DNA of 41,028 nt from a virus: positions 1-41,028 of IMG/VR virus record IMGVR_UViG_3300044633_001152, one strand, 5' to 3'. Numbering within the stretch: position 1 is the stretch's first letter; every line of letters starts with the position of its first letter. Positions 1 through 22,769 of the stretch are shown piece after piece. The position numbers and the translations under genes were made by a program. The notes under the pieces are model-generated. The model saw only the letters and a program-made list of their open reading frames with translations. It made no database searches and was not told where the DNA came from.

Positions 1-525
1 TCTAACAGCAGCAATATGGTACCACTGATTTAAATTAGTGATTACTGATGATATTACATATGTATTTCCAGAATAAAAATAAGGTGCTCGATTGGTGCCG
101 TTAGCTACAATAATACCGTTTAGGTAATCGTTTCTAGTATCAAACATTTGCATAGAATTACCAGGTACAGATGTTTGGTAAAACCAGAACTCTACAGTAT
201 AATTACCGGTACCCATTGCAACTAACGAACCTGCGTTTGCCGTCAAATAATTACTACCACTAAACGCCATACTACCCGTACCAAATTTTTTAACAGTGTT
301 TGATACTGCTACAGATCCCGTATTAGTTATGCTAATTAAATTTTGAGATTTATTCAGCAAATCATTACCAGTCAACAACAATGATACATTAGCAAAGTTA
401 GTATCAACATCAGTATCGCCATTTAACAGTAATGATACATTATCGTAATATTGGTCAGATTCAACGGTTGCTGCAGAAGTAGAAGTACTAGTTCCAGCTG
501 CCATAATAATGTTATCAACACTCAT
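1..525 (-). CDS. LamG-like lectin-fold tail adhesin, C-terminus beyond the left edge
   Basis: 175 residues are visible from the ATG at 525; the frame stays open to the edge. It begins MSVDNIIMAAGTSTST, an N-terminus like those of the two DUF7483-type fibres (MSVRDIVQ, MSVKNVLQ). From about residue 25 it has the pattern of a concanavalin A/laminin-G-3 jelly roll: two VSLLL(N/T)G strands, KKFGTGSMAFSG, GNYTVEFWFYQTS, MFDTRNDY and NQWYHIAAVR at the edge. Such domains bind glycans and are frequent in aquatic phage fibres. Its ATG overlaps the stop of the small gene upstream (ATGA), and an AAGGA lies just before it. It fills the large-adhesin slot of the third cassette. The LamG call is from pattern recognition; the rest of the protein is unseen. 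Confidence 0.85.
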   Translation of the reverse strand, partial: MSVDNIIMAAGTSTSTSAATVESDQYYDNVSLLLNGDTDVDTNFANVSLLLTGNDLLNKSQNLISITNTGSVAVSNTVKKFGTGSMAFSGSNYLTANAGSLVAMGTGNYTVEFWFYQTSVPGNSMQMFDTRNDYLNGIIVANGTNRAPYFYSGNTYVISSVITNLNQWYHIAAVR

Positions 526-875
526 TTAATATCCTTTCCGATAACAACTCCAGTCCATGTTGATCCGTTATCATAAGTATAAAATCCCAACGAATCTCTG
601 CCAGATGCAGTTAATGTTGGTTGAGTGCCTGCTACCCATTTAACGTTACTCCAAAACGTAACTGCTGCACTGCCCCCGTTTGTCAAATCTAATATAAACG
701 ATGCAAATGTGTTAGCAGCCGGTACGTTACTAACAGTTAATGTAGTTGAGCTTGAAATTGTTTTTGAAAATGCATTACCTAATAATAAGTTTATATCATT
801 TGCAGGTAATGCAAATTTTGTTTGGCCTAACCCAGTTATTTCGTATAGATTTGAACTATTTGTTATAGTAGACAT
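522..875 (-). CDS. Small beta-rich tail adhesin accessory protein (117 aa), copy 3
   Basis: Paralogue of the proteins at 6054-6410 and of the C-terminal part of 18615-19148. Shared blocks are YEITGLGQTKFALPA, (I/V)xLxLGNxFxxT, FILDLTNGGSAAVTFW, VKW.AGT.P.LTASGRD and DNGSTWTGVVIGKDIK. The same fold appears at the C-terminus of the 300-aa fibre at 12947-13849, so it is probably a beta-sandwich tip or connector domain. A good AGGA lies upstream of the ATG at 875. The stop overlaps the next start as ATGA, implying translational coupling with the LamG adhesin. A structural or adaptor role is inferred from this invariant pairing; no enzymatic motif is visible. Confidence 0.85.
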   Translation of the reverse strand: MSTITNSSNLYEITGLGQTKFALPANDINLLLGNAFSKTISSSTTLTVSNVPAANTFASFILDLTNGGSAAVTFWSNVKWVAGTQPTLTASGRDSLGFYTYDNGSTWTGVVIGKDIK

Positions 876-917
876 TGTTATTTTTCCTGTGTTGTTAAAA
901 CGATTGTAAAAAGTTAA

Positions 918-2273: not shown

Positions 2274-2286
2274 TCATATTCCTATG

Positions 2287-2769
2287 TTAAATTGGTTGTA
2301 CTGGCCATTGTATATTATAAGGAAACGATTCTTGAGTTGTAACATCTCGTAATTCTTGTCTATAAGTAGCCCATGCATTTTGATCAATTGGAACATCTTT
2401 AACTTGCGTCCAATCAGAATCTTTTAATAATTGATTTCTAGTTTGCCGTACATTGCTAGCAGATGTAGTATCTATATTATATTTATATTTGTTAAATTGT
2501 TCTTCTGCAGTGTGAAATTCGTTGTCAGTAAATACCGGACCGATGTTATATTTTGTAAACCATTTTCCGTTAATTTCTTGAATACCGTTTCTAAAACTGT
2601 ATTCGTATATAGAAGACGGAGTTGCTTGTGGACCTTCTAAAATAGCAACTGCGTTAAAGTCATCAAGCACTTGCTCAGTTAAGATCTGAGGAAAGCTGGT
2701 ATTATTGTGCATATTACGAAATTCATTTTCTGTAATTACTTGTTGTGTTTCTTTTAATAAAATTTCCAT
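2287..2769 (-). CDS. Tail (fibre) assembly chaperone-like protein, long form (160 aa)
   Basis: Starts MEILLKETQQVITENEFRNM with NTSFPQILTEQVLDDFNAVAI, and ends DQNAWATYRQELRDV, then FPYNIQWPVQP. The W..YRQ.LRD....FP..I.WP..P ending is characteristic of small phage tail assembly chaperone/APC-like proteins encoded next to fibres. The 76-aa protein at 16465-16695 is a shortened paralogue lacking the middle of about 84 residues. The central part here (IYEYSFRNGIQEINGKWFTKY and after) resembles other fibre-accessory proteins. AAGGA lies 7 nt before the start. It closes the second cassette and is followed 13 nt later by the third. A role in folding or attaching the 1091-aa fibre is inferred from position. 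Confidence 0.82.
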   Translation of the reverse strand: MEILLKETQQVITENEFRNMHNNTSFPQILTEQVLDDFNAVAILEGPQATPSSIYEYSFRNGIQEINGKWFTKYNIGPVFTDNEFHTAEEQFNKYKYNIDTTSASNVRQTRNQLLKDSDWTQVKDVPIDQNAWATYRQELRDVTTQESFPYNIQWPVQPI

Positions 2770-2778
2770 AGTTATTCC

Positions 2779-6054: not shown

Positions 6055-6410
6055 TATTTAAAGTCCTTATTACAAACACCGGACCAAATAGTACCACCGT
6101 TGTGCGTAAAAAATACAAGTACATCTCTTCCTGATGCAGTTAATATAGGAGCAGTGCCGCCGGCCCATTTTACTCCCCAAAAATTTACAGTACCTGCACC
6201 GCCATTTGTTAAATCTAAAATAAATGCAACTGCAGTACCATCAGCTGGAGTGTTTGATATAGTAAACGTAACAGTTTCTGAAGCACCAACTGTTCTTGTA
6301 AAATAATTGCCTAGGGATAAATCAATTGTACTTGCAGCAATTGTTTTTTTTGTTTCTGCTAGTCCAGTAATTTCATAAACACTGCCAACTAATGATGTTT
6401 GTGCTGCCAT
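6054..6410 (-). CDS. Small beta-rich tail adhesin accessory protein (118 aa), copy 2
   Basis: Paralogue of the 117-aa protein at 522-875: VYEITGLAETKKTIAAS, IDLSLGNYFTRTV, AFILDLTNGGAGTVNFW, VKWAGGTAPILTASGRD, FFTHNGGTIWSGVCNKDFK. AGGAGAG lies upstream of the ATG. Its TAA overlaps the ATG of the 1091-aa adhesin (TAATG), so the two are almost certainly co-translated. It has no signal peptide or membrane segment. It may be an adaptor or trimerisation partner for the large fibre, or a separate fibre tip. Confidence 0.85.
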   Translation of the reverse strand: MAAQTSLVGSVYEITGLAETKKTIAASTIDLSLGNYFTRTVGASETVTFTISNTPADGTAVAFILDLTNGGAGTVNFWGVKWAGGTAPILTASGRDVLVFFTHNGGTIWSGVCNKDFK

Positions 6411-6422
6411 AAATCTCTCCTA

Positions 6423-8513: not shown

Positions 8514-8548
8514 TTAGTTTTCCTTGTATGATTAGTCAAATAATAAAC

Positions 8549-8556
8549 TATTTATA
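8549..8556 (-). promoter_or_regulatory. T4-type late promoter (-10 TATAAATA) for the second adhesin cassette
   Basis: Minus strand reads TATAAATA, the exact T4 late consensus recognised by the gp55/gp33-modified polymerase. It lies 36 nt upstream of the ATG at 8513, giving a leader of about 30 nt that contains AAGGA. It falls just past the in-frame end of the extended 8651-9052 reading frame. Confidence 0.7.
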
Positions 8557-8650
8557 ACTATCACAGTGCTTGGATTTGCTTAGTTAACAGTTCAATCTGT
8601 GCAATAAGTTCTTCTTTAGTTGGTTGAATAGGAGTAATATCAATTAGTGC

Positions 8651-9052: not shown

Positions 9053-9055
9053 ATG

Positions 9056-9118: not shown

Positions 9119-9119
9119 A

Positions 9120-9413
9120 TTAGACTCCGATAGCGCCTTCCATATCTGATTGGATTGCGACCCAATTATAAACTTTTTCTAAAAATACAGAACCTTCTTG
9201 TGCTTCAACATCTGATAGCAATGCGTGATACCGTCTAAAATCAATATCTTTAGTATCATCATTAGTTGGCTGAGTTGCATATCCAACTACGTCAATCATA
9301 ACTGAAAATGTTGCAGCTCGTTGCCGAGATACTGACGCAGTTACTACTCTAAAGTATGCACCTTCAAATGGTACACCATAATTTGATGTTGCTAAATCTA
9401 TTTGTAATGCCAT
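9120..9413 (-). CDS. Conserved small tail-associated protein (97 aa)
   Basis: MALQIDLATSNYGVPFEGAYFR opens a short beta-rich protein with VTASVSRQRAATFSVMIDV and FLEKVYNWVAIQSDMEGAIGV. Similar small proteins occur beside fibre genes in many phages, usually as uncharacterised structural proteins. AAGGAAAC lies upstream of the ATG at 9413 and a late-promoter variant (CATAAATA) at 9436-9443. No catalytic motif is visible; a virion or assembly role is inferred from position. Confidence 0.78.
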   Translation of the reverse strand: MALQIDLATSNYGVPFEGAYFRVVTASVSRQRAATFSVMIDVVGYATQPTNDDTKDIDFRRYHALLSDVEAQEGSVFLEKVYNWVAIQSDMEGAIGV

Positions 9414-9435
9414 GTTTGTTTCCTTATAATGTGTA

Positions 9436-9443
9436 TATTTATG
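9436..9443 (-). promoter_or_regulatory. Late-promoter-like -10 (CATAAATA)
   Basis: Minus strand CATAAATA, one base from the late consensus, 22 nt upstream of the ATG at 9413. It lies in the 122-nt gap after the 248-aa gene. That gap otherwise contains only very short frames, the longest being 13 codons at 9439-9480. Confidence 0.4.
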
Positions 9444-9535: not shown

Positions 9536-10282
9536 TTATTTAATAGTTGTTGTTTTCTTTTTGTAAATCCATTTTCTATAAAAACCAGGAGCAGTAGTTC
9601 TGTATTTAAAATTTGCAAGTCCAGATTCGTATGGTGTAATTAACCCAACTTCTGCAGTAATAGTTTCTCGTTTGTACGGAATTATCTGTAACATCGGTGT
9701 ACCTGCATATATTTTAACATGCATCTCACGTAATGGTGAAAACATTACATTAAGAGTATGATATGAATCATAATCATTAATGCCAGGATATAAAAATAAA
9801 TCTCTTAAAAATGGTGAATGAAATAGTGCAGGCAGTACTAATGCCGAATATCCAGGTTTAGTAAATACCTTCCACGGACATGGTAACTTTATTGCATGAT
9901 GTGCAATGTTATCGTCAATGTTTGCAGCTCCGGCAACTACACGATAATCCATAGGTTCAAACGGGTTACATACAAAGTGTCGGCCTTTACCAATAATAAT
10001 TTCTGCAGTTGTGCGAGTAACTATAATTTCAAAATCTTCCCATGCTGGAATAATATATCCAGTTCGGTAATAATCGTGCATTCCCGGACATGATGAAAAT
10101 TTATGAGTTTTGTTGTGTTCGGCAGTTTTAAGTTGTGTAACTAACCATTCTGGTTTTACATCTAATGCACGTTGAACTGGTTGTCCAATCTCATATCCGG
10201 GCACATCGCATTTAAATTTAATTATAGGCTGCGGGTTTACTAATTCACTAACTATTGCTTTAATAGAAGAGAACATTGACAT
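9536..10282 (-). CDS. Phage protein of unknown function, paralogue A (248 aa)
   Basis: Paralogous to its upstream neighbour (10282-11004). Both share an acid-rich opening, (P/K)xWxxxxxT..., a C.PM.D...xGYIIP...D motif (here CPGMHDYYRTGYIIPAWEDFE), PFPKN/PCPWKVFTKPGYSALV, and xYAGTPMLQIIPYKRET near the end. The layout suggests a beta-rich, possibly cupin-like fold. It may correspond to an uncharacterised phage family (DUF6065-like), which I cannot verify. The start overlaps the preceding stop (TAATG). M3 at 10276 is an alternative start. It lies in a three-gene group with a 2OG-Fe(II) oxygenase. Confidence 0.8.
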   Translation of the reverse strand: MSMFSSIKAIVSELVNPQPIIKFKCDVPGYEIGQPVQRALDVKPEWLVTQLKTAEHNKTHKFSSCPGMHDYYRTGYIIPAWEDFEIIVTRTTAEIIIGKGRHFVCNPFEPMDYRVVAGAANIDDNIAHHAIKLPCPWKVFTKPGYSALVLPALFHSPFLRDLFLYPGINDYDSYHTLNVMFSPLREMHVKIYAGTPMLQIIPYKRETITAEVGLITPYESGLANFKYRTTAPGFYRKWIYKKKTTTIK

Positions 10283-11004
10283 TATTTTTTTACCCTAATG
10301 TTGTTAACATAATAACTTGTTTGGTTTGCTTGTTTAGAGCTAGTAACTTCACGATTGTGCCATTCAGTATTAGTAAATTCTCTTACTTTGTAATCAGAAA
10401 TTGTAGTGCTACGTTTAAACGGAATACACTGAATTATAGGAGTTCCGGCAAGTACAAAATCGTCATAATTAGTAGCCATCCAACATGTTGGAAAATTAAT
10501 TTCTCTATCATATTTATCAGTATCTACTACTGCACCTAATGTTATAAACCGTGTTTCTAAATGATTAATCGGTGACACAAACAAACAAGAATAGCCAGGT
10601 GGAGTTTTAATTACAAAATGATTAATAAATTTAATTAAGTGATTTTTAGGAAATGGAAAATTTGGACTTACTTGATCCTGCGAGTGTTCTTCTGTTAACT
10701 TAACAAATCGATTTTCTGTAATTTCTATTAACGATGCATCGTCGTTTGATCGAATATGCACATCACCAGCTAATGGGATAATATACCCGTGTGTCATTGC
10801 ATCTAACATTGGTAAACATTTTTTAGCAGTCATTGACACTCCCCCAGTAATTGTATCTCTATTAGATTTACAATGGGTCGGTATAGATCTATACCAATTT
10901 GGTATAAATTTATTAGCTGGAGCAGGAGGTATTAATACCTCTGCATTTTCTTTAGTGGTTAAAAATTCAATTAGAGGAGATTTAAAAATAGAAATTAATG
11001 ACAT
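10282..11004 (-). CDS. Phage protein of unknown function, paralogue B (240 aa)
   Basis: Motifs NKFIPNWYRSIPTHCKSN, TAKKCLPMLDAMTHGYIIPLAGD, PFPKNHLIKFINHFVIKTPPGY, and TPIIQCIPFKRSTTI match the gene immediately downstream, so the two arose by duplication. The cysteine in (K/S)xCxPM.D is conserved in both. An AAGGG lies 7 nt before the ATG. There is no signal peptide or membrane helix. It sits directly after the 2OG-Fe(II) oxygenase with a 15-nt gap. A modification-related role is conceivable from context only. Confidence 0.82.
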   Translation of the reverse strand: MSLISIFKSPLIEFLTTKENAEVLIPPAPANKFIPNWYRSIPTHCKSNRDTITGGVSMTAKKCLPMLDAMTHGYIIPLAGDVHIRSNDDASLIEITENRFVKLTEEHSQDQVSPNFPFPKNHLIKFINHFVIKTPPGYSCLFVSPINHLETRFITLGAVVDTDKYDREINFPTCWMATNYDDFVLAGTPIIQCIPFKRSTTISDYKVREFTNTEWHNREVTSSKQANQTSYYVNNIRVKK

Positions 11005-11019
11005 ATACCCTTTTGAGTG

Positions 11020-11619
11020 TTATTTAAATTTTGGACCAAGCACCCAGCATACTAAACTCTTACGCTTGCCAGATAATACTTCAGTTACTTGATGTGGAAC
11101 AAAGGCAGGAAACATTAATACGTCTCCTTTTTTAACTTTTGTACTATTTATTTGGTCTGGATTTCCTGCAGGTATAATTTGAAATTCTCCACCTGTAAAT
11201 TCAGTTTCTGGATCAGATAATATTACCGATACTCCTAATTTTCTATGGTACGGGCCGTATGTTTCTTTTGAATCTCCATCAATATGCCATTTATAATAGC
11301 CGCCAGTTTTATATGTAGTGTATTGAAAAGAATCAATATGCGACAATGCAAATTGAAATTTATCAGTGTTAACTCTAGAAACAATTTCTGCCATTTTGTT
11401 AAATAACCAAGCAGTATGTTCTCCAGGTTGAACCCACGAAATTGAACTATGCCTAATTGCTATCTCTTCAGTTCCTGCTCCTAAGTTTCCAACTTTAGCT
11501 TGCTGAAATTCTAAGTTATCACCAATTTTAATAATTTCTGCAATATCTTCATCTGTAAATGCGCCAGACCAACAAATTATTGGCTCAAGTGCTGAGTGTA
11601 TATCCGGTATTGTAAACAT
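11020..11619 (-). CDS. 2-oxoglutarate/Fe(II)-dependent dioxygenase, PKHD/prolyl-hydroxylase-like (199 aa)
   Basis: The double-stranded beta-helix core is clear. W111-H112-I113-D114 supplies the HxD iron ligands, H176 in FVPHQVTEV is the second histidine, and basic residues K185/R186 in SGKRKSLVCWVLG suit 2-oxoglutarate binding. GGEFQIIPAG and KKGDVLMFPAFVPH are typical strands of the PiuC/YbiX-type hydroxylase group. Members oxidise protein side chains or small molecules with O2 and 2-oxoglutarate; the substrate here is unknown. Such enzymes are common in aquatic T4-like phages. No SD precedes the ATG at 11619, and an inverted repeat lies about 30 nt upstream. Surrounded by adhesin genes, it might modify virion fibres, but this is speculation. 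Confidence 0.88.
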   Translation of the reverse strand: MFTIPDIHSALEPIICWSGAFTDEDIAEIIKIGDNLEFQQAKVGNLGAGTEEIAIRHSSISWVQPGEHTAWLFNKMAEIVSRVNTDKFQFALSHIDSFQYTTYKTGGYYKWHIDGDSKETYGPYHRKLGVSVILSDPETEFTGGEFQIIPAGNPDQINSTKVKKGDVLMFPAFVPHQVTEVLSGKRKSLVCWVLGPKFK

Positions 11620-12946: not shown

Positions 12947-13849
12947 TTATCTAACTCCATACATTGCTAAACTGCCAGCAAATGTCGCTCCGGCATCAGT
13001 TGTAAAAAATGTCCAAACATCATATCCGCCAGTGCCAATTACAGTTAATGTAGCAGGTGGAATTACACCATTTGGCCATTTAATATTACTAGCAACACCT
13101 GCACGTTGCCATGCTAAACTTGCAATTGCTACGTTGTTTTTAACAATAACATTTATTGAAAATATATTTGCACTAGTCATTGTAGCCGGAGTTCCGGTAA
13201 AATTAAAAGTTTTTGCTTGACTAGCAGTAGTATCGCATGTAATAATTATTGTCGATGTTGTTGTGGTAGTTAGATCAATTGTAAGAGTAGTTGCAGTACT
13301 TGATAACGTAGTAGTTGGTTCTATTATACCAATAACACCACTACCATTAATTGTAATAGTAGTACCATCAACTTTTACACCACCAAGTTGCGATGCAGAT
13401 GCAGTTGCTATTCCAATAGTTCCACTAGTATTCGTAATACCACTAGTACTAACTGCAGGAATAATTACACCACCTAATGCACTAGTAGTAGCAGCAGTTA
13501 ACGAGTAAGGAGCTGCAACTGATATTGTTCCGTCACCTGCAATTGCAACATTTGATCCTTGTTTAACTCCACCAAGTATTACTGATGTAGAAACTGGTAA
13601 CGAGTAAGGAGCTGCAACTGATATTGTTCCGTCACCTGCAATTGCAACATTTGATCCTTGTTTAACTCCACCAAGTATTACTGATGTAGAAACTGGTAAC
13701 GAGTATGTGCTTGCACCACTAATGACACCACTACTGCTAATCATTATTGATGATCCGTCAACTTTTACACCACCTAGTTGTGTACTAGATGCAATTGTTA
13801 ATGGCGTGCTACTACCAGTTCTTAACAGTGCTGATAATTTTTTTGACAT
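12947..13849 (-). CDS. Tail fibre with tandem LGGVK repeats and a beta-sandwich tip (300 aa)
   Basis: Starts MSKKLSALLRTGSSTP, then five LGGV repeat units (QLGGVKVDGSSIMISSSGVIS, ILGGVKQGSNVAIAGDGTISV twice, LGGVIIPAVSTSG, QLGGVKVDGTTITINGSGVIG). Residues about 180-300 form a terminal domain (IKWPNGVIPPATLTVIGTGG, FFTTDAGATFAGSLAMYG) recognisably related to the small 117/118/177-aa proteins. Shaft and tip are therefore fused here but separate elsewhere. SD AAGGAAAA; perfect late promoter at 13868-13875. Two of the repeat units are identical at the DNA level. Confidence 0.85.
   Translation of the reverse strand: MSKKLSALLRTGSSTPLTIASSTQLGGVKVDGSSIMISSSGVISGASTYSLPVSTSVILGGVKQGSNVAIAGDGTISVAAPYSLPVSTSVILGGVKQGSNVAIAGDGTISVAAPYSLTAATTSALGGVIIPAVSTSGITNTSGTIGIATASASQLGGVKVDGTTITINGSGVIGIIEPTTTLSSTATTLTIDLTTTTTSTIIITCDTTASQAKTFNFTGTPATMTSANIFSINVIVKNNVAIASLAWQRAGVASNIKWPNGVIPPATLTVIGTGGYDVWTFFTTDAGATFAGSLAMYGVR
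13499..13705. repeat. Perfect 99-bp tandem duplication within the 300-aa fibre gene
   Basis: 13499-13597 and 13598-13696 are identical base for base, and the first nine bases of the unit occur again at 13697-13705. The unit encodes 33 residues (YSLPVSTSVILGGVKQGSNV...). Lack of synonymous divergence points to a very recent expansion. Confidence 0.95.
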
Positions 13850-13867
13850 TTAGTTTTCCTTATATGT

Positions 13868-13875
13868 TATTTATA
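13868..13875 (-). promoter_or_regulatory. T4-type late promoter (TATAAATA) for the 300-aa fibre gene
   Basis: Exact late consensus on the minus strand, 19 nt upstream of the ATG at 13849, with AAGGA in the short leader. It forms one arm of a 9-bp inverted repeat with the plus-strand site at 13889. Confidence 0.65.
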
Positions 13876-13888
13876 ATCAAATATTACT

Positions 13889-13896
13889 TATAAATA
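13889..13896 (+). promoter_or_regulatory. Plus-strand late-promoter match pointing antisense
   Basis: Exact TATAAATA on the plus strand, back to back with the minus-strand promoter at 13868-13875. Transcription from it would run antisense through the 395-aa propeller gene; no plus-strand gene follows. It may be functional, or simply the mirror arm of the palindrome. Confidence 0.4.
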
Positions 13897-13907
13897 GTCG
13901 GATCTAC

Positions 13908-13982
13908 CTACGGATTAATCCATGAAATTGTTAATTCGTCCCATTGATAATATTTTCCATTTATCCTAGATTGACGTTGCAT
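13908..13982 (-). CDS. Possible 24-aa ORF or out-of-frame C-terminal remnant
   Basis: ATG at 13982 overlaps the end of the 395-aa gene in another frame and encodes MQRQSRINGKYYQWDELTIS plus WINP. The YxWDExxxxW pattern resembles the end of the 133-aa accessory protein (YVWNEELLGW). It may be a separate microprotein, or a fragment left by deletion of a larger accessory gene. There is no convincing SD. Confidence 0.3.
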   Translation of the reverse strand: MQRQSRINGKYYQWDELTISWINP

Positions 13983-15153
13983 AAAGTGGCGCACCTAATT
14001 GAGTAGTATCACTGCTATTCCATCCTACAGCTACAACTAATCCGGCACTATTAACTGCTATTCCTTTTATACGCGATAAAACTCCAGTTCCCATAGAAAC
14101 TGGAGCAGTCCATGTATATCCATCAGTTGACGTAGCATACATAGCGTTACCATAAAAGCGAGGTTGACTGGCATGTAATGTGGTTTGCTGAAAATTAGAC
14201 GTCTGCATCGTATAAAAATCACCAACTGCTACAAATAATCCAGATGGAGTGACTGTTATTGCACTCAATCTACCAAAACCTGTGCCCATGCGAACCGTAA
14301 CATTAGGCCAATTATATCCATCAGGGGATGTAAGCGATACTGATTGGACTGTTACGTTGTAATAATTTTCCTTAGCTCCTACAGCTACAGCTACGCCGGC
14401 ATTATTAACTGCTACTGCCCAGCATTTTGTGTCAAATTGTATTGTACCATTAGGAACACCACGGAAGTTCCAGGTAATACCGTCAAGTGAATCTGACATT
14501 CCCACGCCGGCGTCAGTGTAAGTGTTAGAATTAATAGCTATAAATCTGCCAGTAGTTTGGTTTACTGTTACTGCAACATAGCGATAACCATCTACTGCAT
14601 ATGGAGTAGTCCAAGTAGATCCATCCGTGGATGTAGCAACCATTGCACCTTGATTACTATTATCAAGATAATAATCAGGATCCAGAACAGTGCCGGTATG
14701 CCCTACAGCTACAAATCTTCCGTCGCTTTCTCTAACTGCTACTGCCCACATTTGTGCAACTGTGGTACTACCGTTCATAAGTGCCGGTGTAGTCCAAGTT
14801 GATCCATTAGTTGATGTTGCATACACTGATTGAGAACTACTATTATACCCTACAGCTACAAATTTTCCGTCGCTTTGTCTGCATGTAATCCCAGTCATAT
14901 ATGCAACTGTGGTACTACCATTCATACGCGCTGGTGTAGTCCACGTTGATCCGTTAGTTGAGGTTGCATACACTGGATAATTGCTACTATCATATCCCAC
15001 CGATACAAATAGTCCGGTACTAGTCTTACATGTTATAGCCTTCATTCTTGCATGTGTTGCACTAGCACCTAGTTGGGCCGGTGTAGTAAATCCAGCAATA
15101 TTAGCAGGACCTGACTGTTTAACTGATGTAAACATCTGCATAATACCTGTCAT
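13966..15153 (-). CDS. Seven-bladed beta-propeller tail adhesin with Asp-box motifs (395 aa)
   Basis: About seven repeats of 45-65 residues have the pattern I(T/A)V...G.FVAVG...YATS(T/P)(N/D)G.TW, i.e. the sialidase/BNR Asp-box S-x-(D/N)-G-x-T-W at the ends of blades 1-6. Blade 7 ends at ...GAPLYATSI without its last strand, and the N-terminal GFTTPAQLGASATHARMKA looks like that missing strand, so the ring probably closes by N-/C-terminal velcro. No sialidase catalytic residues can be assigned, so binding is more likely than hydrolysis. The start overlaps the stop of the 426-aa fibre (ATGA), implying coupled synthesis. It may sit at that fibre's tip. Confidence 0.85.
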   Translation of the reverse strand: MTGIMQMFTSVKQSGPANIAGFTTPAQLGASATHARMKAITCKTSTGLFVSVGYDSSNYPVYATSTNGSTWTTPARMNGSTTVAYMTGITCRQSDGKFVAVGYNSSSQSVYATSTNGSTWTTPALMNGSTTVAQMWAVAVRESDGRFVAVGHTGTVLDPDYYLDNSNQGAMVATSTDGSTWTTPYAVDGYRYVAVTVNQTTGRFIAINSNTYTDAGVGMSDSLDGITWNFRGVPNGTIQFDTKCWAVAVNNAGVAVAVGAKENYYNVTVQSVSLTSPDGYNWPNVTVRMGTGFGRLSAITVTPSGLFVAVGDFYTMQTSNFQQTTLHASQPRFYGNAMYATSTDGYTWTAPVSMGTGVLSRIKGIAVNSAGLVVAVGWNSSDTTQLGAPLYATSI

Positions 15154-16430
15154 GACACATTACCTGATACAACACATACACTTGCACTTACGAATAAAAT
15201 TGTAGCAATACCACGAGTAGCTAATGTGATAGATGCTTTTGCTGTATTAGTTCCAGCAATATATGCTGTAAGCGCACTGGTTGTAATAGTGATGTTACCT
15301 GTCGTGTTGTTATAAACAGAGATTGCATCGCCATTTGCAAACCTAGAAGTTGGTACAACAACAGAGCCACTTGCTCCAACACCGACATATTTACCTACAT
15401 CAGTAAGCACTAGTTCATAAGCCGTAGTTTTATCACTACCAGTCTGCGGGATGTTTTTGTATCCTACTGCATTTGTACCATCTACCGTGCAAGATGACAA
15501 CGTACCGCTAGATGGTGTACCTAATGCGCCGCTAGGCGCTAAGAAATCTGTACCGGCAGATGCAGTGGTAATTGCACCTGTACCATTGCCTTTTAAAATA
15601 CCGGTAAGTGTAGTTGCGCCAGTACCGCCATTTGCAATTGGCAGTGTGCCGGTTACATTAGTAGTTAAATTAGCAAATGTAGTAGAAGTTGAACCAGTAC
15701 CACCGTTTGCAATTGGCAACGCAGTTCCAGATAAGCTAATTGCAATAGTACCGCTTGTTGTAATTGCCGATCCTGCTGATAAAAAAGATGGTACTGTAAT
15801 ACCAATCGAAGTTACAGTACCTGTATTTGATGTAAAACCAGACGGATTAGTTGCGGCATACGCACCTAATGCAGTTAATGCGGTGGCAGCAGTTGTAGAA
15901 CCAGTCCCGCCTTGCCCAACTGGTAACGCATTTGCTAGTACTAGATCAGTTGCTCTAATTTTACCGCCAGCATAAATTGCCCATCCATTTGTTATTGTAG
16001 TATTTGTAGATGCAATCGGTGCATCTACAAATAAACTAGCAGCATTAGTAATCGTTACTGCATTAGTACTAGCCAATGTCGGGCTTGCCATAACATTAAC
16101 ATAACTACTTGCAATTGTACCTGTACTAGAAGTATCAGTATATGTTCTTGATTGTAATTTTAAATTAACACCGCTAGTTGCCCATGATGCTGTACTAACT
16201 CCGGTTGAAGCAGTAGATAACGATTCTGCAACAACTAATGGTCCTGCAACGGTAGTAGAAACTCCAGTTGCGCCAATCCCAGTTGAAACAATATTTGGAG
16301 TCCATGCATATGCACTTCCAGTCCAGTTTAAATAACCGGTTGACGGATTAGCTAATGCAGGAATATCACTGTTAGCAACTGTTGGAGTGTTATTGCCAGA
16401 TCGTAATATGGATGATAGATTTTTTGACAT
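15150..16430 (-). CDS. Tail fibre with GGTG repeats (426 aa)
   Basis: Starts MSKNLSSILRSGNNTPTVAN, followed by a beta-rich shaft containing several LP(I/V)(A/G)xGGTG(S/A)(T/S) turns, a widespread phage fibre-shaft motif. The C-terminus (YELVLTDVGKYVGVGASGSV, RFANGDAISVYNNTTGNITIT, TRGIATILFVSASVCVVSGNVS) is a compact tip domain seen in many phage fibres. AGGAATTTCT lies before the ATG. It is translationally coupled to the downstream beta-propeller protein. It probably forms a trimeric receptor-binding fibre. Confidence 0.86.
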   Translation of the reverse strand: MSKNLSSILRSGNNTPTVANSDIPALANPSTGYLNWTGSAYAWTPNIVSTGIGATGVSTTVAGPLVVAESLSTASTGVSTASWATSGVNLKLQSRTYTDTSSTGTIASSYVNVMASPTLASTNAVTITNAASLFVDAPIASTNTTITNGWAIYAGGKIRATDLVLANALPVGQGGTGSTTAATALTALGAYAATNPSGFTSNTGTVTSIGITVPSFLSAGSAITTSGTIAISLSGTALPIANGGTGSTSTTFANLTTNVTGTLPIANGGTGATTLTGILKGNGTGAITTASAGTDFLAPSGALGTPSSGTLSSCTVDGTNAVGYKNIPQTGSDKTTAYELVLTDVGKYVGVGASGSVVVPTSRFANGDAISVYNNTTGNITITTSALTAYIAGTNTAKASITLATRGIATILFVSASVCVVSGNVS

Positions 16431-16464
16431 TTAGAAATTCCTATATCGTATATTTAGCTAACAG

Positions 16465-16695
16465 TTAAGCTGGGTTAACAGGGTATTCTATATTGTATGT
16501 AAAATTAGTATGTCCTGTAATATCGAGTAATGTTTGTCTATAAGTTGCCCATGCTTCGTTATCAACTAGTGCATCTGCATTAAAACTGTCAAGAATTTCT
16601 TTAACTAACAGCTGAGGAAAACTTGTATTTGGATACATTGCTCTAAATTCAGATTCTGATACTGCTTGTTGTGTGTCTAATAATAAAATTTCCAT
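16465..16695 (-). CDS. Tail (fibre) assembly chaperone-like protein, short form (76 aa)
   Basis: MEILLLDTQQAVSESEFRAM plus PNTSFPQLLVKEILDSFNADA joins directly to VDNEAWATYRQTLLDI and NIEYPVNPA. Compared with the 160-aa paralogue at 2287-2769, both ends are kept and about 84 central residues are missing, with the frame preserved. AAAGGA lies before the ATG. It closes the first adhesin cassette, 9 nt after the 637-aa fibre. The small size and conserved ends suggest the chaperone function needs only the terminal segments, if the protein is active. Confidence 0.8.
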   Translation of the reverse strand: MEILLLDTQQAVSESEFRAMYPNTSFPQLLVKEILDSFNADALVDNEAWATYRQTLLDITGHTNFTYNIEYPVNPA

Positions 16696-16704
16696 GTTAT
16701 TCCT

Positions 16705-18618
16705 TTATGCTATTGCTAAAAATATGTAAGTTGCACTCGTAACATTAATGTTAGTTGCTGCAAGTTGATTTACTATAAAACCAGAATTATCTGGGTCAAT
16801 TGAATCATCTGTTGCTTCGGCTGCTGTTGTGTTTAGTGTTACATAAGGATCGTTTCCGCCAACAATCCCTCGTACCGTATCCCATACATACCAATTACCT
16901 GATGCATCAATGCGCTTAATTAAAATAAATCTTGCTCCTGCTGCAAAACCGCAGCTTATAGTTTGTGAGCTACCGTTGCCTGTATATGAGCCTACTTTAC
17001 TAACACCGGCTAGTGTGGCAAACAGATAAGCCACCGAAGGGGAAGAAGTATTTCCAAACGAATATACAGGGTTAAAGGTTGTATCTGTTAAACCGAGTGA
17101 ACTAGCCGTTTCGGTAAATGAAAAACTTAGAGCAATAGTTAGGTTTAATTTTGTTCCACCATAACCGGTAGACGCCTTCGCTACAACATTCCAATCAGAA
17201 GCAATAGTTCTTGACCTATATATAAGTAATTCAGGTATTACTCCTAAACTATGGTTAACATCTTGGTAGCCTGAAACACCAGTCCAGCATACTATGTCAA
17301 AGAATCCGGGGGCGCGTTTGAACATCCATCCCATTCTAGTTGTAAGGTCTGATCGAGCTGAAATATAATTTACACCATTCATAGTATCCATTCTCCAATC
17401 TGCAGATGCGATTTCACCACCTGTACTCTCGGTTGACATATATTGGGGTGCTCCTCTTAACCTATCTTGCACATAGCAAGGACCAGCAGCAACTTTTGCA
17501 AGCAATAAATCAACAGCGATGGGAGAATTAAAAGCCTTAACACTAGGTGTTGTATCTAATCCATAAGAGCAAGAAAAAACCTGCGTCCCCGTTGTAGGCG
17601 GTTTGTTGGGGCGGCGGATTGCCATGTAGATGTAGGTTGCACCGCTAGCATTAAACCCCGCTGCAGCCGTGTTAATTTGAAAGCCAGTTGATGTAGGCGC
17701 AACGAACGTTCCGGTAAATTCAGCAGCAGTTGTATCAGGATTTAGGACTGCATCATTACCATCTGCTGTCATACCACGCATATTATCAACCATCTGCCAG
17801 CTACCAACTCCGGTAGCATTTTTAATAAGTAAAAACTCCGGTTCCCAACCTAAAGAAACAATTGGTCCAGTAGCACTGCCGTTACCGGTATATTTCCCAC
17901 ACTTAATCATACTATCCGCAGCCGTATTGTGGGCAAATAGGTAGGCAACATACGTTGCTCCGGACTCATTTGTACTGTCACCTGGCTGGTTTGCCGATGT
18001 TCCAACACTAAATTGTGTATCAGTTGGCAATGTAAATGATCCATTCCACCACGACTGCCAATTTGGCGAATTTAATAACAGGTCATATCCAGACGTATAT
18101 CCCCAATTTCCGTAACTATTATGAATAACAATCCAAGGACCGGCAGCGTTAGTGCGTTTAATTATCGTCATTCCTGGTATAATTCCTAATGAATGCGACA
18201 GTGTTTTTAAAGATGTTCCATCTCCCGTATAAGTTACTATGTCAAAAAACTTTGCGGCTTTGCGGAATGTCCATGAGACGTATGTATTACCTGAAATATT
18301 TCCTTGAACATCGGATCCAACAGAAAATCCATTAGAATTAAATGCAGTTACATTAGTTGAATATTCTTCCCCATTAGTTACTGATGTATATAGACGATAT
18401 GAAGGTCTACATATTATTCCTTGTGACGCGGCATTTCTACATTTTAACCACACTATCCCGCCGTTTCCAGCTAAATCAATGCCGTTAGTAATAGTTTGCG
18501 ATGTGCCGTTTCCGGTATAGAGATATGTGCTGAAAAAGGCATTAACATCAGTTGTCGTAGGTACGCTGTTACCTGCACTACTACTAGCAGCTGATTGGAC
18601 TATATCACGAACACTCAT
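16705..18618 (-). CDS. Large tail adhesin with DUF7483-like repeats (637 aa)
   Basis: About six related units open with a YTGxG strand and continue with a (L/F)xxxKxxxxxxxWxVxDxxRG strand pair: TYLYTGNGTSQTITNGIDLA, DIVTYTGDGT, KCGKYTGNGSATGPIVSLGWEP, FFDIVCWTGVSG, GSYTGNGSSQTISCGF. The protein ends NVTSATYIFLAIA. This is the DUF7483-type repeat common in fibres of aquatic phages. The N-terminus MSVRDIVQSAASSSAG matches the other large adhesins. The ATG overlaps the preceding stop (ATGA) with AAGGA upstream. It lacks the propeller insertion present in the 1091-aa paralogue, so it represents the simpler architecture. Confidence 0.87.
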   Translation of the reverse strand: MSVRDIVQSAASSSAGNSVPTTTDVNAFFSTYLYTGNGTSQTITNGIDLAGNGGIVWLKCRNAASQGIICRPSYRLYTSVTNGEEYSTNVTAFNSNGFSVGSDVQGNISGNTYVSWTFRKAAKFFDIVTYTGDGTSLKTLSHSLGIIPGMTIIKRTNAAGPWIVIHNSYGNWGYTSGYDLLLNSPNWQSWWNGSFTLPTDTQFSVGTSANQPGDSTNESGATYVAYLFAHNTAADSMIKCGKYTGNGSATGPIVSLGWEPEFLLIKNATGVGSWQMVDNMRGMTADGNDAVLNPDTTAAEFTGTFVAPTSTGFQINTAAAGFNASGATYIYMAIRRPNKPPTTGTQVFSCSYGLDTTPSVKAFNSPIAVDLLLAKVAAGPCYVQDRLRGAPQYMSTESTGGEIASADWRMDTMNGVNYISARSDLTTRMGWMFKRAPGFFDIVCWTGVSGYQDVNHSLGVIPELLIYRSRTIASDWNVVAKASTGYGGTKLNLTIALSFSFTETASSLGLTDTTFNPVYSFGNTSSPSVAYLFATLAGVSKVGSYTGNGSSQTISCGFAAGARFILIKRIDASGNWYVWDTVRGIVGGNDPYVTLNTTAAEATDDSIDPDNSGFIVNQLAATNINVTSATYIFLAIA

Positions 18619-19148
18619 TTTATATCCTTACCAAGTACAAGACCGGTCCAAATTGTTCCTCCATCGTGTGTAAAGAATCCTAATGTGTCTCTACCTGTAG
18701 TAGTTAATGTAGGTGGAGTACCTCCTACCCATTTAACACCCCAAAATGTAACTGCTGAGCTGCCACCGTTGGTTAAATCTAATATAAACGAACTAACTGT
18801 ACCAGCAGCCGGAACATTACTTACTGTTAATGATACTGCACCAGAAATTGTTTTAGTAAAATAAGATCCTAACGATAGATCAATATTTAACGCAGACATT
18901 GCTATTCTAGTTTCGTATGCACCGATTGATGTGATTGTTTTATTAGTTAATGTTTGAGCATCAGTTGTTCCGACCACTGCGCCGGTTACATTAATAGTGT
19001 ATGCTAACGCTGTCCATGTACTAGTCCCGTTTCCTATTTTAAATTTATTTGTTGCTAATTCGACACCGATTTCACCTTGTGCTAATATTGGATTTACTGA
19101 TGTCCAATTTGCTGCAGTGTCGTGTCTTAATTGTAGTTGAACAGCCAT
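18615..19148 (-). CDS. Mtd-N-like domain fused to the small accessory beta domain (177 aa)
   Basis: Residues 1-52 (MAVQLQLRHDTAANWTSVNP, ILAQGEIGVELATNKFKIGNG, TSTWTALAY) match the phage N-terminal domain also found in major tropism determinant and hyaluronidase-like fibre proteins. Residues about 75-177 are the same domain as the free-standing 117/118-aa proteins (FILDLTNGGSSAVTFWGVKWV, LTTTGRDTLGFFTHDGGTIWT). In the first cassette the accessory protein thus carries an extra attachment-type module. A very good AAGGAG precedes the ATG, and ATGA couples it to the 637-aa adhesin. Confidence 0.86.
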   Translation of the reverse strand: MAVQLQLRHDTAANWTSVNPILAQGEIGVELATNKFKIGNGTSTWTALAYTINVTGAVVGTTDAQTLTNKTITSIGAYETRIAMSALNIDLSLGSYFTKTISGAVSLTVSNVPAAGTVSSFILDLTNGGSSAVTFWGVKWVGGTPPTLTTTGRDTLGFFTHDGGTIWTGLVLGKDIK

Positions 19149-19163
19149 TATAACTCCTTATTC

Positions 19164-22100
19164 TTATGCTGCGCCGCCGGCGTTTATTGACGACAATCCT
19201 AATCCACCGTATGTAGATGCAGCAGAGCCACAATCTATATATGTCATGTTATTAACTGAACTTATTACTCCACTACCGTTAATTGTAATCGTAGAACCAT
19301 CAACTTTTACACCACCTAATTGCGTAGTACTTGCAGTTGGCAACGATCCTTGCGATCCTTGTAATACTTTCCAGTTAGTTGAACTTTGATTGTACACTAA
19401 TGAAACATAGGTTCCATTAGTATTTAATACTAATGACGATGTGTTTTGAACAGTATTTCCACTACCGGGTAATATTGTTAAGTTATTTGTAGAGAATGAA
19501 CCAGCACTTGCTACGTCTACAAAGTTAACAATACTACCGTCATTTGGGCTAGTTGGTAATGTTACTGAAAATGCAGCTGAGGTTGTATTGCATCTTACTA
19601 GGTCGTTTACTGATGCAATATAACCATTGCTAGTTTTAATTGCAGTAGAAATAATGCCAGTTCCCGTTGGGGTTTCTAAAATTCGCCAATTACTATTAAC
19701 ATCGTTATACACTAATGCTATGTAAGAACCGTTTATATCAAGAACCAACGAAGTAGTGTCGTCTTCAATTGTTTTAGAACCAGCTGCTAATATTATTAAA
19801 TTATTAAGTGCAAACTTTCTATGTGTATCAATAACACCAATAATATCCCCATCTACTGGAGCACTTGGTAATGTAATTGAAAACGATCCGCTAGTGGTAT
19901 TACATCTAACTAGATCGTTTGCTTTAGCAACATAACTATCAGCAATTTGTATTGCAGTTGGACTTAGACCACCGCCGACGCTACTTATTACACCGCTACT
20001 ATTAATTGTAATTGTATTACCGTCAACTTTTACAGCACCTAATTGTGTAGTACTTGCAGTCGGCAACGAACTTTGTAATAATTTCCAGTTAGTTGAACTT
20101 TGATTGTACACTAATGAAACATAGGTTCCATTAGTATTTAATACTAATGACGAGCTGTTTTGAACAGTATTACCACTACCGGGTAATACTGTTAAATTAT
20201 GTGCAAAAAATGATCCAGCACTTGCTACGTCTACGAAGTTAACAATGCTACCGTCATTTGGACTAGTTGGCAATGTTACTGAAAACGCAGCAGTTGTAGT
20301 GTCGCATCTTACTAAGTCGTTTACTGATGCAATATAACCGTTGCTAGTTATAATTGTAGTAGAACTAGTACCAGTTCCAAGTGGAGTTTCTAAAACTCTC
20401 CAATTGTTGTTAACGTCGTTGTACACTAATGCTATGTAAGAACCGTCTATATCAAGAACTAACGACGTGTCGTCTTCAATTGTTTTAGAACCAGCTGCTA
20501 GTATTGTTAAATTATTAAGTGCAAATTTTCTATGTGTATCAATAACACCAATAATATCTCCATCTACTGGAGCACTTGGTAATGTAATTGAAAATGCTCC
20601 ACTTGTGGTATTACATCTAACTAGGTCGTTTGCTTCAGCAACATAACCATTAGCAGTTTGTATTGCAGTTGGACTTAGACCGCTGCCGGCGCTACTTATT
20701 ACACCACTACCGTTAATTGTAATTGTATTACCGTCAACTTTTACTCCGCCTAGTTGAGTAGTTGATGCAGTTGCTAACCCAATTGTTCCACTGCTATTTG
20801 ATAATCCGCTTGTACCAACTGCTGGAATTATAACACCACCTAACGCACTAGTAGTAGCAGCAGTTAATGAATACGTATTTGCTCCACTTATTACACCACT
20901 TCCGTTAATTGTAATAGTAGTACCGTCAACTTTAACTATACCTAAAACAGAAGTAGATGCCATAGGTGCGGCACTAACTACTGCTTGCATATCTAACATC
21001 TTCCAATTGCCGGTTATTTGTATATACCCAAATACTATGTACGTACCTCGTATATTTAATAACATAGCAGTTCCATCGTTTTCGATAGTTTTGCCATTTG
21101 GTAATACTGACACGTAGTGTATGTCAAATGTTTCAGCAACATCCATAAATCCAATCATATCACCGTCGTTAGGTGATGCAGGTAATAATACTGAAAACGA
21201 TCCGGCAGTTGTATTGCATCTAACTAAGTCATTTGCAGATGCAGTATAACCGTTTGCAATTTTAATCGGAGTTGGGGTTAATCCACTGCTACCACCGCTA
21301 CCACTACCAATTGAACCCCATGCTGATCCGTTATATCCTTCAAATGATGCAGTAGTAGTATTAAATCTTAAATTACCTGCAACTGCACTCGGTCTTGATA
21401 ACGTATCGCCCGACGGTACAGTTAATGTAGTGTTTACTATTAACCCATTTGCAGCAGTTAATGTTCCAAATATTTTTGAAGAAGTTGTTGAACTATTACC
21501 AATTACAGTAGTATTACTACCTAACCCTACTGCAGTTGCACCGATAACGATCTCGTTTGAATTAGTTGCAGATGAACCAACTGTATTATAACCTACATAA
21601 ATGTTATTTGATCCAGTTGTGTTTGCATTTGCACTATTTGCATAACCGGCATAATAACCTAAAGCAGTGTTACCTGCACCTATAGTTGTTGATTTTAGTG
21701 ATTGAAAACCAATTGCAACGTTATCGTTGTTAGTACTATTAAATAATGCATATCCGCCAACTGCAACATTGTTACTTCCGGTAACGTTAGCAAGCAATGT
21801 TTGATAGCCAATTGCAGTGTTATCTGCGCCTACAGTAGTAACCTTAAGTGATTGATATCCAACTGCAGTATTCTCTGCACCTGTAATGATTGCTGCTAAC
21901 CCTTGATAACCAACGATTGTATTTGATGCAACATTGCTATTACCGAGACCTACAGTTAATGTATGTATTGATGCATCAACAGTTGTAGTAATAGCACTTG
22001 ACCAAATGCCTGAGGTAATAGTACCTACACTCGATAATGACGATAATGTAGTTACTGCTGAGTTAACTAATGTTCCGGTAGTTGGAAATGTAACATTTGT

Positions 22101-22769
22101 ATCTGCAGTAGTAGTTAACGTTAACGAATTACCAGTAGTTATTAAAGATGAGCTGTTTGCTAGTGTTAAAGTTGCACTAGTTGACGGCGCAGTAATAGTT
22201 ACTTTGTTTACTTTTGAAGTAAGTAAATTTCCAATCTGTAAAGTATCGTAAGTTGCATTTGAAAAATCAACAGTTGTAGTTGGTTCATCTAGTACGTTAC
22301 TAAACAACTTCCATACAGAATCAGTTGCATCCCTTACTAACCCAGCATGAGTGTCATCGTCAACACCATTGTTGTATCGTCCGATAAGTCCAATATCTAG
22401 TAAATCTGCAGTATTGTTAGCAGCTAAGTAAATTAACGCATCGTTAACACTTAAATTAGTAGCACTGAGTTGGTTAGCAGTTCCATTAAAAAATATGTTT
22501 CCTTCGACTTGTAAATCATGATTAATCTTAGTTAATCCAGGTAATGCTGCGCCTATTACAATTGATGTTGCAGCTCCGGCAAAATTTACAGTAGTTGCAT
22601 TAGTGTTAATTAAATTAAAACTAGCACTTGGTGTTGTTAATGATGTAGAAATTGCAGGACTAGTTGACAATACAACACTACCTGTACCGGTTGATGTAGT
22701 TGTACCTGTACCGCCGCGGGCAACTGAAATAACTCCTTTTTGTAAAATGCTAGAAAGCGTTTTTGACAT
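19164..22769 (-). CDS. Giant modular tail fibre (1201 aa) with NTAVGY beta-roll and five repeated C-terminal modules
   Basis: Starts MSKTLSSILQKGVISVARGGTG. A TLTLANSSSLITTGNSLTLT/SGTLVNSAVTTLS block is shared with the 586-aa fibre. Residues about 270-426 are NTA(V/I)GYQSL-type beta-roll repeats (YadA-head-like). LRFNTTTASFEGYNGSAWG follows. From about 500 to 1136 there are five copies of an approximately 100-aa module (NGYxAxxNDLVRC(N/D)TTxxxFSVxLP, DGxxIxxxD, GxYxxLVY, NWKxL), separated by QLGGVKVDGxTITINGSGVIS linkers. Copies 2+3 and 4+5 are a duplicated pair. It ends YIDCGSAASTYGGLGLSSINAGG, a recurrent fibre ending. SD AAGGAAAA. It is the first gene of the first cassette. Confidence 0.88.
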   Translation of the reverse strand: MSKTLSSILQKGVISVARGGTGTTTSTGTGSVVLSTSPAISTSLTTPSASFNLINTNATTVNFAGAATSIVIGAALPGLTKINHDLQVEGNIFFNGTANQLSATNLSVNDALIYLAANNTADLLDIGLIGRYNNGVDDDTHAGLVRDATDSVWKLFSNVLDEPTTTVDFSNATYDTLQIGNLLTSKVNKVTITAPSTSATLTLANSSSLITTGNSLTLTTTADTNVTFPTTGTLVNSAVTTLSSLSSVGTITSGIWSSAITTTVDASIHTLTVGLGNSNVASNTIVGYQGLAAIITGAENTAVGYQSLKVTTVGADNTAIGYQTLLANVTGSNNVAVGGYALFNSTNNDNVAIGFQSLKSTTIGAGNTALGYYAGYANSANANTTGSNNIYVGYNTVGSSATNSNEIVIGATAVGLGSNTTVIGNSSTTSSKIFGTLTAANGLIVNTTLTVPSGDTLSRPSAVAGNLRFNTTTASFEGYNGSAWGSIGSGSGGSSGLTPTPIKIANGYTASANDLVRCNTTAGSFSVLLPASPNDGDMIGFMDVAETFDIHYVSVLPNGKTIENDGTAMLLNIRGTYIVFGYIQITGNWKMLDMQAVVSAAPMASTSVLGIVKVDGTTITINGSGVISGANTYSLTAATTSALGGVIIPAVGTSGLSNSSGTIGLATASTTQLGGVKVDGNTITINGSGVISSAGSGLSPTAIQTANGYVAEANDLVRCNTTSGAFSITLPSAPVDGDIIGVIDTHRKFALNNLTILAAGSKTIEDDTSLVLDIDGSYIALVYNDVNNNWRVLETPLGTGTSSTTIITSNGYIASVNDLVRCDTTTAAFSVTLPTSPNDGSIVNFVDVASAGSFFAHNLTVLPGSGNTVQNSSSLVLNTNGTYVSLVYNQSSTNWKLLQSSLPTASTTQLGAVKVDGNTITINSSGVISSVGGGLSPTAIQIADSYVAKANDLVRCNTTSGSFSITLPSAPVDGDIIGVIDTHRKFALNNLIILAAGSKTIEDDTTSLVLDINGSYIALVYNDVNSNWRILETPTGTGIISTAIKTSNGYIASVNDLVRCNTTSAAFSVTLPTSPNDGSIVNFVDVASAGSFSTNNLTILPGSGNTVQNTSSLVLNTNGTYVSLVYNQSSTNWKVLQGSQGSLPTASTTQLGGVKVDGSTITINGSGVISSVNNMTYIDCGSAASTYGGLGLSSINAGGAA
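19265..20690. repeat. Tandem duplication of a two-module unit of about 711-723 bp in the 1201-aa fibre gene
   Basis: About 19265-19977 and 19978-20690 align along their whole length. For example, the segment beginning GAACTTTGATTGTACACTAA at 19381 recurs at 20095. Offsets vary from 711 to 723 nt because of small in-frame indels (an extra Thr codon and an extra GSQ in the left copy). Scattered synonymous changes show it is older than the 99-bp repeat. Confidence 0.85.

Follow-up and report, generated by a model that had tools for sequence, protein, structure and literature searches.

The window, a stretch of 41,028 bp that constitutes the complete, linear IMG/VR record IMGVR_UViG_3300044633_001152 and is probably a fragment, carries on its minus strand an array of fibre, adhesin and chaperone genes. 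The array probably represents a hypervariable adhesin island in the genome of a T4-like jumbo phage, composed of repeated plug-and-socket cassettes and remodelled by recombination. Each cassette would begin with a fibre bearing a short N-terminal tag, followed by the S domain, which forms the fibre's own C-terminal tip in many phages and is encoded by a separate small gene here. Next would come a distal adhesin that opens with a short helical peptide, and then a chaperone of the Tfa/APC type that would aid adhesin folding. The N-terminal peptide of the adhesin (the "plug") would dock onto the S tip (the "socket"), and any adhesin with the same peptide could be mounted. Host specificity would change through recombination with coinfecting phages, by which the exposed part between the conserved ends would be replaced, another binding domain would enter a tolerant loop of the adhesin domain DUF7483, or whole sets would be gained or lost. 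The labels L and G below refer to comparison contigs, among which L228 and L322 represent one relative locus and L288 and L414 another. The genes of the three cassettes A, B and C are as follows (window coordinates; lengths in amino acids, aa):

19164..22769, minus strand: set A fibre, 1201 aa; N-terminal tag MSKTLSSIL; C-terminal part 74% identical to L228; repeated fibre modules common to the 586- and 696-aa proteins
18615..19148, minus strand: set A small protein S, 177 aa; Mtd_N (Pfam) plus S domain; 94% identical to L228
16705..18618, minus strand: set A adhesin, 637 aa, with a pair of DUF7483 units; proposed plug at residues 1-19, stretch exchanged with respect to L228 at about 20-425/450, C-terminal part retained
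16465..16695, minus strand: set A putative Phage_tail_APC chaperone, 76 aa; 84 codons missing relative to the 160 aa of L228
6423..8513, minus strand: set B fibre, 696 aa; YadA_head repeats; 44% identical over the full length in L288
6054..6410, minus strand: set B small protein S, 118 aa; 70% identical to the S of L288
2779..6054, minus strand: set B adhesin, 1091 aa; propeller-like insert of about 450 aa, then two DUF7483 units
2287..2769, minus strand: set B putative Phage_tail_APC chaperone, 160 aa; 72% identical to L288
918..2273, minus strand: set C fibre, 451 aa; YadA_head repeats; 82% identical over 226 aa to a homologue at the third G027 locus
522..875, minus strand: set C small protein S, 117 aa; related to the other S proteins by BLASTP and included in the S tree
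1..525, minus strand: set C adhesin of LamG type, truncated at the contig end; carries the plug motif MSVDNIIMAAG; 82% identical over 123 aa to the LamG adhesin of L278

The open reading frames (ORFs) that the initial annotation had read as three versions of one adhesin cassette were all present on the minus strand, encoding proteins of 1201, 177, 637 and 76 aa at 22769-16465, of 696, 118, 1091 and 160 aa at 8513-2287, and, in a third block at 2273-1, of 451 and 117 aa followed by the contig-cut LamG ORF. BLASTP showed that the corresponding genes were homologous, with alignments extending beyond low-complexity sequence. The 637- and 1091-aa adhesins were 43% identical over 613 aa (E=6e-127), the three small proteins were 53-64% identical to one another (E down to 5e-44), and the 76- and 160-aa chaperones were 42% identical (E=1e-16), with a second block at 53%. 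Among the fibres, the identity was 56% over 293 aa between the 696- and 451-aa proteins (E=5e-85) and 52-53% over 191 aa between the 1201- and 696-aa proteins, and the DNA identity from block to block was about 70% over the longest stretch. Pfam assigned DUF7483 to the two large adhesins, Laminin_G_3 to the cut ORF, and the YadA_head repeats to the 696- and 451-aa fibres. The 160-aa protein matched PF16778 (Phage_tail_APC) with 72.6 bits against a cut-off of 26.6, and the 76-aa protein, which holds half of this domain, scored 24.7 bits and fell under the cut-off. The functions assigned to all these domains rest on family names. The four-gene order also recurred in the independent contig L288/L414 (LamG-APC146-fibre625-S116-adhesin1931-APC160-fibre517-fibre587), whose 1931-aa adhesin has six LamG stretches ahead of DUF7483.

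As had been suggested, one receptor-binding cassette is present in several versions, with a framework that is kept and exposed domains that differ; the L228/L322 locus shows the process. Several details of the initial annotation needed correction. Three versions do exist, but the total was set too low, as the array contains at least five fibre/adhesin sets. The exposed domains indeed differ, but the propeller of the 1091-aa protein is inserted within the DUF7483 framework instead of being added at its end. The small genes and the chaperones are conserved, with two qualifications: the 177-aa protein has an extra Mtd_N domain, and the 76-aa chaperone is the 160-aa type with an in-frame internal deletion. 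A third APC chaperone is expected beyond the cut left end of the contig, because an APC gene comes after the LamG adhesins in L288, L270 and L278.

The L228/L322 locus was syntenic with the window from 20.9 to 9.5 kb at 76-95% DNA identity. Relative to L228, the N-terminal two thirds of adhesin A were replaced at a sharp boundary, with 59% DNA identity before and 90% after a single breakpoint near 17266; the likelihood ratio for this breakpoint was 96.5, the largest value in 1000 block permutations was 24.7, and none of the 1000 reached the observed one. The nearest kin of the N-terminal part was found in L134 (50%), and that of the C-terminal part in L228 (85%). Since the first codons of the adhesin were nearly identical to those of L228 and the C-terminal part was conserved, the replaced stretch was framed on both sides, and the preceding S was conserved as well (94%). 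The reverse of this pattern was seen in the second cassette of a tandem pair in L118 (9843-11654), where the N-terminal DUF7483 half was conserved and the C-terminal half was different. The chaperone of set A, which has 160 aa in L228, was shortened by an in-frame loss of 252 bp (84 codons) located between the short similar sequences TGCAG[AT]TGCA. Set 2, one of two further sets lying between A and B, was absent from L228, whose DNA tracked the window at 16460-16302 (98%) and resumed at 13960-13903 (88%), keeping a 68-aa fused remnant of the set.

The plug was examined with a matrix trained solely on the first 13 residues of DUF7483 proteins and applied to the genes behind S that do not encode DUF7483. 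Thirty-five of these 56 genes scored above the 99th percentile of 3779 background genes, where about 0.6 would be expected, and the motif was roughly M[STA]x[RKH][DN][IL][IVL]MAAAG. No background gene scored as high as the 637-aa and LamG proteins of the window. The true number of plugs is probably higher than counted, as the choice of start codon masks the motif in some genes; in L286 (2038-2727), for example, the automatic start hides a plug motif, and MSTFDLIMAAAG lies within a longer ORF. In the AlphaFold model of the 637-aa protein, residues 3-14 formed a low-confidence helix beside a confident, β-rich body (predicted TM score, pTM, 0.86). Because S ends its protein and the next gene usually starts with the shared peptide, we infer that the N-terminal peptide of the adhesin docks onto S as a plug in a socket. 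Comparable attachments have been described: conserved N-terminal peptides of 7-11 residues were proposed to attach the secondary receptor-binding proteins (RBPs) of K1E/SP6-like phages (PMC6872550), and gp38 of phage S16 attaches to gp37 through short N-terminal helices (PMC9608196).

The distribution of the module was surveyed by hidden Markov model scans of loci collected with adhesin and S profiles. The gene behind DUF7483 was an APC gene in 113 of 148 cases, and the gene behind S encoded DUF7483 in 61 cases and another protein in 58. The S domain ended at most 5 aa from the C-terminus in all 109 unique proteins, whose lengths ranged from 98 to 1567 aa, and the next gene started between -10 and +30 nt after the S gene in 94 of 107. 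This constant C-terminal position, across such different lengths, indicates that S is a C-terminal fibre tip that has been split off as a gene of its own in the window. The cultivated Roseobacter phage CRP-13 carries one copy of the module, with gp46-gp45-gp44 corresponding to S-DUF7483-APC. In the stretches read of Synechococcus phage S-B68 (L424 9697-14031) and Vibrio phage GR7B (L423 4806-12912), no S or APC neighbours were found, and the DUF7483 repeats sit inside single very long proteins. In L269 (4813-6785), a DUF7483 adhesin occupies two ORFs (365 and 291 aa) beside an intact cassette and is possibly part of a decaying one. The DUF7483 model had no fold match in the PDB at E<=0.001 and no sequence match there; its matches in a viral structure library were other DUF7483 proteins and unnamed phage proteins. 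For S, no solved relative was found by sequence, and a weak PDB match to the capsid spike of Pseudomonas phage Pa223 (E 1.8e-3, rmsd 14) was not used as evidence. A broader reading, to which we give slightly less than even weight, is that the S tip and the plug form a mounting standard common to many marine and freshwater phages that are unrelated to one another and range from small isolates to jumbo myoviruses, with folds interchangeable between lineages and with jumbo phages stacking several mounts. The interchangeable folds would then include DUF7483, LamG arrays, propellers and F5/8-C hybrids.

DUF7483 itself contains a site that tolerates large insertions. The strands FSTYLYTGNG..NGI and GGxVWxKxR are 4-5 residues apart in 77 of the 84 full-length DUF7483 proteins, and in 6 of the 84 exactly this site holds 165-450 residues. 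According to Pfam, the inserts are LamG in L019 and L194 and a sub-threshold F5/8-C domain in L224; those of L200, L320 and the 1091-aa protein of the window are propeller-like by sequence relationship. In the 1091-aa protein, about 450 aa separate the N-terminal DUF7483 strand from the GGxVWxKxR strand. The free-standing 395-aa propeller of set 2 shared 36-49% identity with the insert that the DUF7483 adhesins of G027 and L200 carry; the same domain thus serves both as an insert and as an adhesin of its own.

Between sets A and B, two further fibre/adhesin sets at 16430-13966 (426 and 395 aa) and 13849-11726 (300, 263 and 152 aa) belong to the same array. These sets, the neighbouring 133-aa gene and two promoter motifs are listed below:

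15150..16430, minus strand: set 2 fibre, 426 aa (MSKNLSSILRSG..); tag MSKNLSSIL; only the first 47 aa left in L228; 83% identical over 151 aa to G034
13966..15153, minus strand: set 2 adhesin, 395 aa, probable β-propeller; related to the insert in the G027/L200 DUF7483 adhesin; tag MTG[IV]MQ
13868..13875, minus strand: T4-type late promoter motif TATAAATA; begins 26 nt upstream of the start of the set 3 fibre
12947..13849, minus strand: set 3 fibre, 300 aa (MSKKLSALLRTG..); tag MSKKLSALL; 90% identical to L228
12153..12944, minus strand: set 3 variable protein, 263 aa, probable adhesin and second hot spot; 42% identical to L228
11726..12184, minus strand: set 3 small protein, 152 aa; may be a partner or chaperone; 42% identical to L228
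8651..9052, minus strand: 133-aa protein, possible set 2 chaperone; the G034 homologue lies directly behind the set 2 adhesin
8549..8556, minus strand: T4-type late promoter motif TATAAATA; begins 43 nt upstream of the start of the set B fibre

The order of sets 2 and 3 was the same in G034, where the adhesin slot of set 2 was filled by a different protein of 284 aa that kept only the N-terminal tag MTG[IV]MQ. In set 3, the 263- and 152-aa genes were 42% identical to those of L228, while the other surrounding genes were 74-90% identical. Inside the array at 9536-11619, a 2OG-Fe(II) oxygenase gene and two related DUF6065-type genes travel together, with identities of 74-86% to L228, 81-86% to G027 (at its second locus) and 73-76% to G034; their products may modify a virion protein or the host surface. 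A strongly conserved 97-aa protein (9120-9413; 71-81%) lies directly downstream of a fibre related to the 696-aa protein in G027, G034 and G041 and upstream of the 696-aa fibre in the window, which points to a local rearrangement.

The right half of the window encodes a T4-like head module, with the portal at 32860-34611, prohead protease and scaffold genes, and the major capsid protein at 28712-29881. The homologues of gp23, gp20 and gp21 are arranged in a T4-like order, as in phages of the CBB/GAP32/Phosso type, and the GenBank relatives of the capsid protein are jumbo phages of this type (65-70%); the window belongs to a T4-like jumbo phage, probably as one fragment of its genome. Acidic repeats (EEGDDEFGADD) run through the middle of a scaffold-region protein at 31641-32531. 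Of the long relatives, G027 (372,016 bp) is the nearest; its capsid protein is 96% identical, and the two neighbouring genes are at 93-95%. The genes behind the capsid gene are conserved among relatives as far as a 337-aa protein, beyond which the variable fibre stretch begins. Its far border in L322, G027 and G005 is a block of genes on the opposite strand, comprising a small gene (NUDIX in L322), a T4 gp15-like tail sheath stabiliser and a structural gene of 400-450 aa (families from L322). The array is thus an adhesin island that has the head genes on one side and, in relatives, the neck/tail-sheath-stabiliser genes on the other. The same head-gene order is found in G001-G003, but giant fibres of 1200-3000 aa follow there and no DUF7483 match was found in them; they were unhelpful as guides to the history of the cassettes except to mark the island. 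In G027, fibres are located at three loci (80-36 kb, 195-216 kb and 269-285 kb), and homologues of the window genes are scattered over all of them, which indicates that such genes change locus within a group whose capsid proteins are 96% identical.

A number of observations weigh against an island of plug-and-socket cassettes. In G027, the closest long relative, S had no match and a single DUF7483/APC pair was located at a different locus, which means that the group can do without the array. Sets 2 and 3 lack S and DUF7483 and carry other tags, and the plug-and-socket reading is therefore directly applicable to A, B and C only. The plug score of the 1091-aa protein was weaker, in the top 1.1%, and the model of S was only moderately confident (pTM 0.56). 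As the surveyed sequences are related to one another, there were fewer independent events than the plug and adjacency counts imply.

The origin of the sets was evaluated from trees of the S and APC proteins. In the S tree, which has only 121 columns and many unresolved forks, the S of A paired with L228 (support 99) and that of B with L207/L288 (96); the S of C was weakly placed, and no two window proteins paired with each other. In the APC tree, A paired with L228 (99), and the nearest row to B was L207, in a set of nine that also held A (98). These placements indicate that the sets are older paralogues and/or separate acquisitions assembled in one place. The "duplicated operon" of the initial annotation, in which one operon was recently copied twice and the copies diverged under selection for different receptors, could account for the gene order that B and C repeat and that A shows with additional domains, and at least two S or APC genes occur in 12 of the 124 non-redundant loci of >=8 kb. 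It is nevertheless improbable, because the trees pair A and B with other contigs, the A and B adhesins are no closer to each other than to those of unrelated phages, and the block DNA identity is as low as given above. The trees rule out a recent triplication, and a recent duplication of A and B is already largely refuted; a deep duplication of B and C, inherited with L288, is possible. The array might also be a chimeric metagenome assembly that joins fibre loci of different phages, given that the G027 homologues lie at three loci and that repeated fibre modules are assembly hazards. We consider this very doubtful. L322 independently confirms 20.9-9.5 kb, G034 confirms the order of set 2, set 3 and the oxygenase/DUF6065 genes, and L288 confirms the adjacent order of B and then the next fibre; the joins at 22.8 kb and 9.4-8.5 kb lie outside this coverage by close relatives.

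Other explanations concern the use of the sets rather than their origin. All sets may be mounted together as a branched adsorption apparatus in the style of RaK2/PhiK64-1, with one receptor per branch, which is compatible with the recombining island and is a real possibility, if somewhat short of probable. The nearest known phages by capsid protein are CBB/GAP32-type jumbo phages, the sets are intact and co-oriented, the fibres have N-terminal tags in common, and the promoter motifs ahead of sets B and 3 fit late expression. The long tail fibres of RaK2 consist of nine fibre proteins (PMC10253068), so that all adhesins on one particle would be possible. On the other hand, Pfam and PHROGs reported no T4 gp10-like branching domain in the scanned proteins, the long fibres having had no structure-level search, and set A may be decaying in view of its shortened chaperone. 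The motif TATAAATA is not enriched across the window (5 seen, 7.6 expected), and its three intergenic, correctly oriented sites are suggestive only. The simplest reading of the gene arrangement is that the sets would be expressed together as virion parts. It appears unlikely that only one or two sets still function and that some are remnants in decay; the internal deletion in the 76-aa chaperone and the set 2 remnant in L228 speak for this, but the large adhesin and fibre frames are open, and the 85% identity of the C-terminal third of adhesin A to the L228 protein suggests continued constraint. Least credible of all is a "reservoir for switching" among phase-variable adhesins, by Mu/P1-like inversion or by diversity-generating retroelement mutagenesis, despite the several complete alternative adhesins with their own chaperones and the Mtd_N domain of the 177-aa protein. 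All sets have one orientation and intact frames, and the inverted repeats are short and imperfect, with no long, high-identity ones flanking the sets. Searches of the window, G027, G022 and G023, in which the positive controls were detected, revealed neither a resolvase/invertase or tyrosine integrase nor a reverse transcriptase (PF00078). Switching was rejected for the lack of these enzymes and of suitable repeats, and the cassette array, which is itself real, is read as a case of modular exchange through recombination. Within the recombining island, we infer the chaperone action, the receptor binding by the variable parts and the presence of several sets on one virion from the sequences.

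The mosaicism of RBPs and jumbo phages with multiple RBPs are already known; fibre-chaperone modules are shared between phages (PMC10579305), and the RBP loci of large phages are recombination hotspots (PMC12028318). For the S-DUF7483-APC module, the plug peptide and the insertion loop, no description was found in the literature searched by the name DUF7483, which is not proof of absence. From this array, the components, their boundaries and their turnover can be read off directly, including the socket domain, the plug peptide, the tolerant loop and the matching chaperone, and recent swap, deletion and set-loss events are visible between relatives. The array clearly exemplifies how a phage can remodel its hold on bacteria, and does so with a module that many other phages also carry. 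If the plug-and-socket reading is true, it would allow annotation of the host-binding protein and of a likely determinant of receptor specificity in many environmental phages, those of Pelagibacter and roseobacters among them, and the way in which large phages diversify adsorption would become testable.

In phages Mu and P1, invertible cassettes hold alternative pairs of adhesin and chaperone in one genome. The window differs from these in having no invertase and no inverted orientation, and its sets are full-length. The gp37-gp38 pair of T-even phages and S16 (S16 gp38, PDB 6F45, according to PMC9608196) is similar in that a separate adhesin gene lies directly behind the gene of the fibre tip, and the short N-terminal helices of S16 gp38 on gp37 resemble the proposed plug and S tip. 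However, judged by the lack of a PDB match to its model at E<=0.001, DUF7483 does not have the gp38 adhesin fold, a glycine-rich lattice, and the window has an additional APC chaperone gene behind the adhesin and several cassettes in a row. Chaperones of the Tfa/Pam3 gp25 type (PF16778) are likewise encoded directly behind their clients, and the C-terminal region of the window proteins matches this family. Pam3 gp25 binds the fibre through its N-terminal domain and trimerises through its C-terminal helices (PMC9608196), whereas the window chaperones are putative and the copy in A is without 84 middle codons. The module of Alteromonas phages A5 and V22 (PMC10579305) also combines a fibre with a chaperone, is common to unrelated phages and has insertions that alter the fibre; it was described there as one copy per phage, and the likeness is one of module design. 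RaK2 and PhiK64-1 (Alcyoneusvirus) are, like the source of the window, jumbo phages with many clustered fibre genes and short conserved N-terminal peptides. Such peptides on secondary RBPs, which mark the branched multi-RBP phages RaK2/PhiK64-1, G7C and CBA120, were found in the window, and MALxxLV was proposed as the attachment peptide of secondary RBPs in KP34 viruses (PMC10253068, PMC6872550). In contrast to RaK2 and PhiK64-1, no depolymerase β-helix families were detected in the array proteins scanned (general Pfam/PHROGs scans), and the window has a separate S domain before the tagged protein and a chaperone gene for each adhesin.

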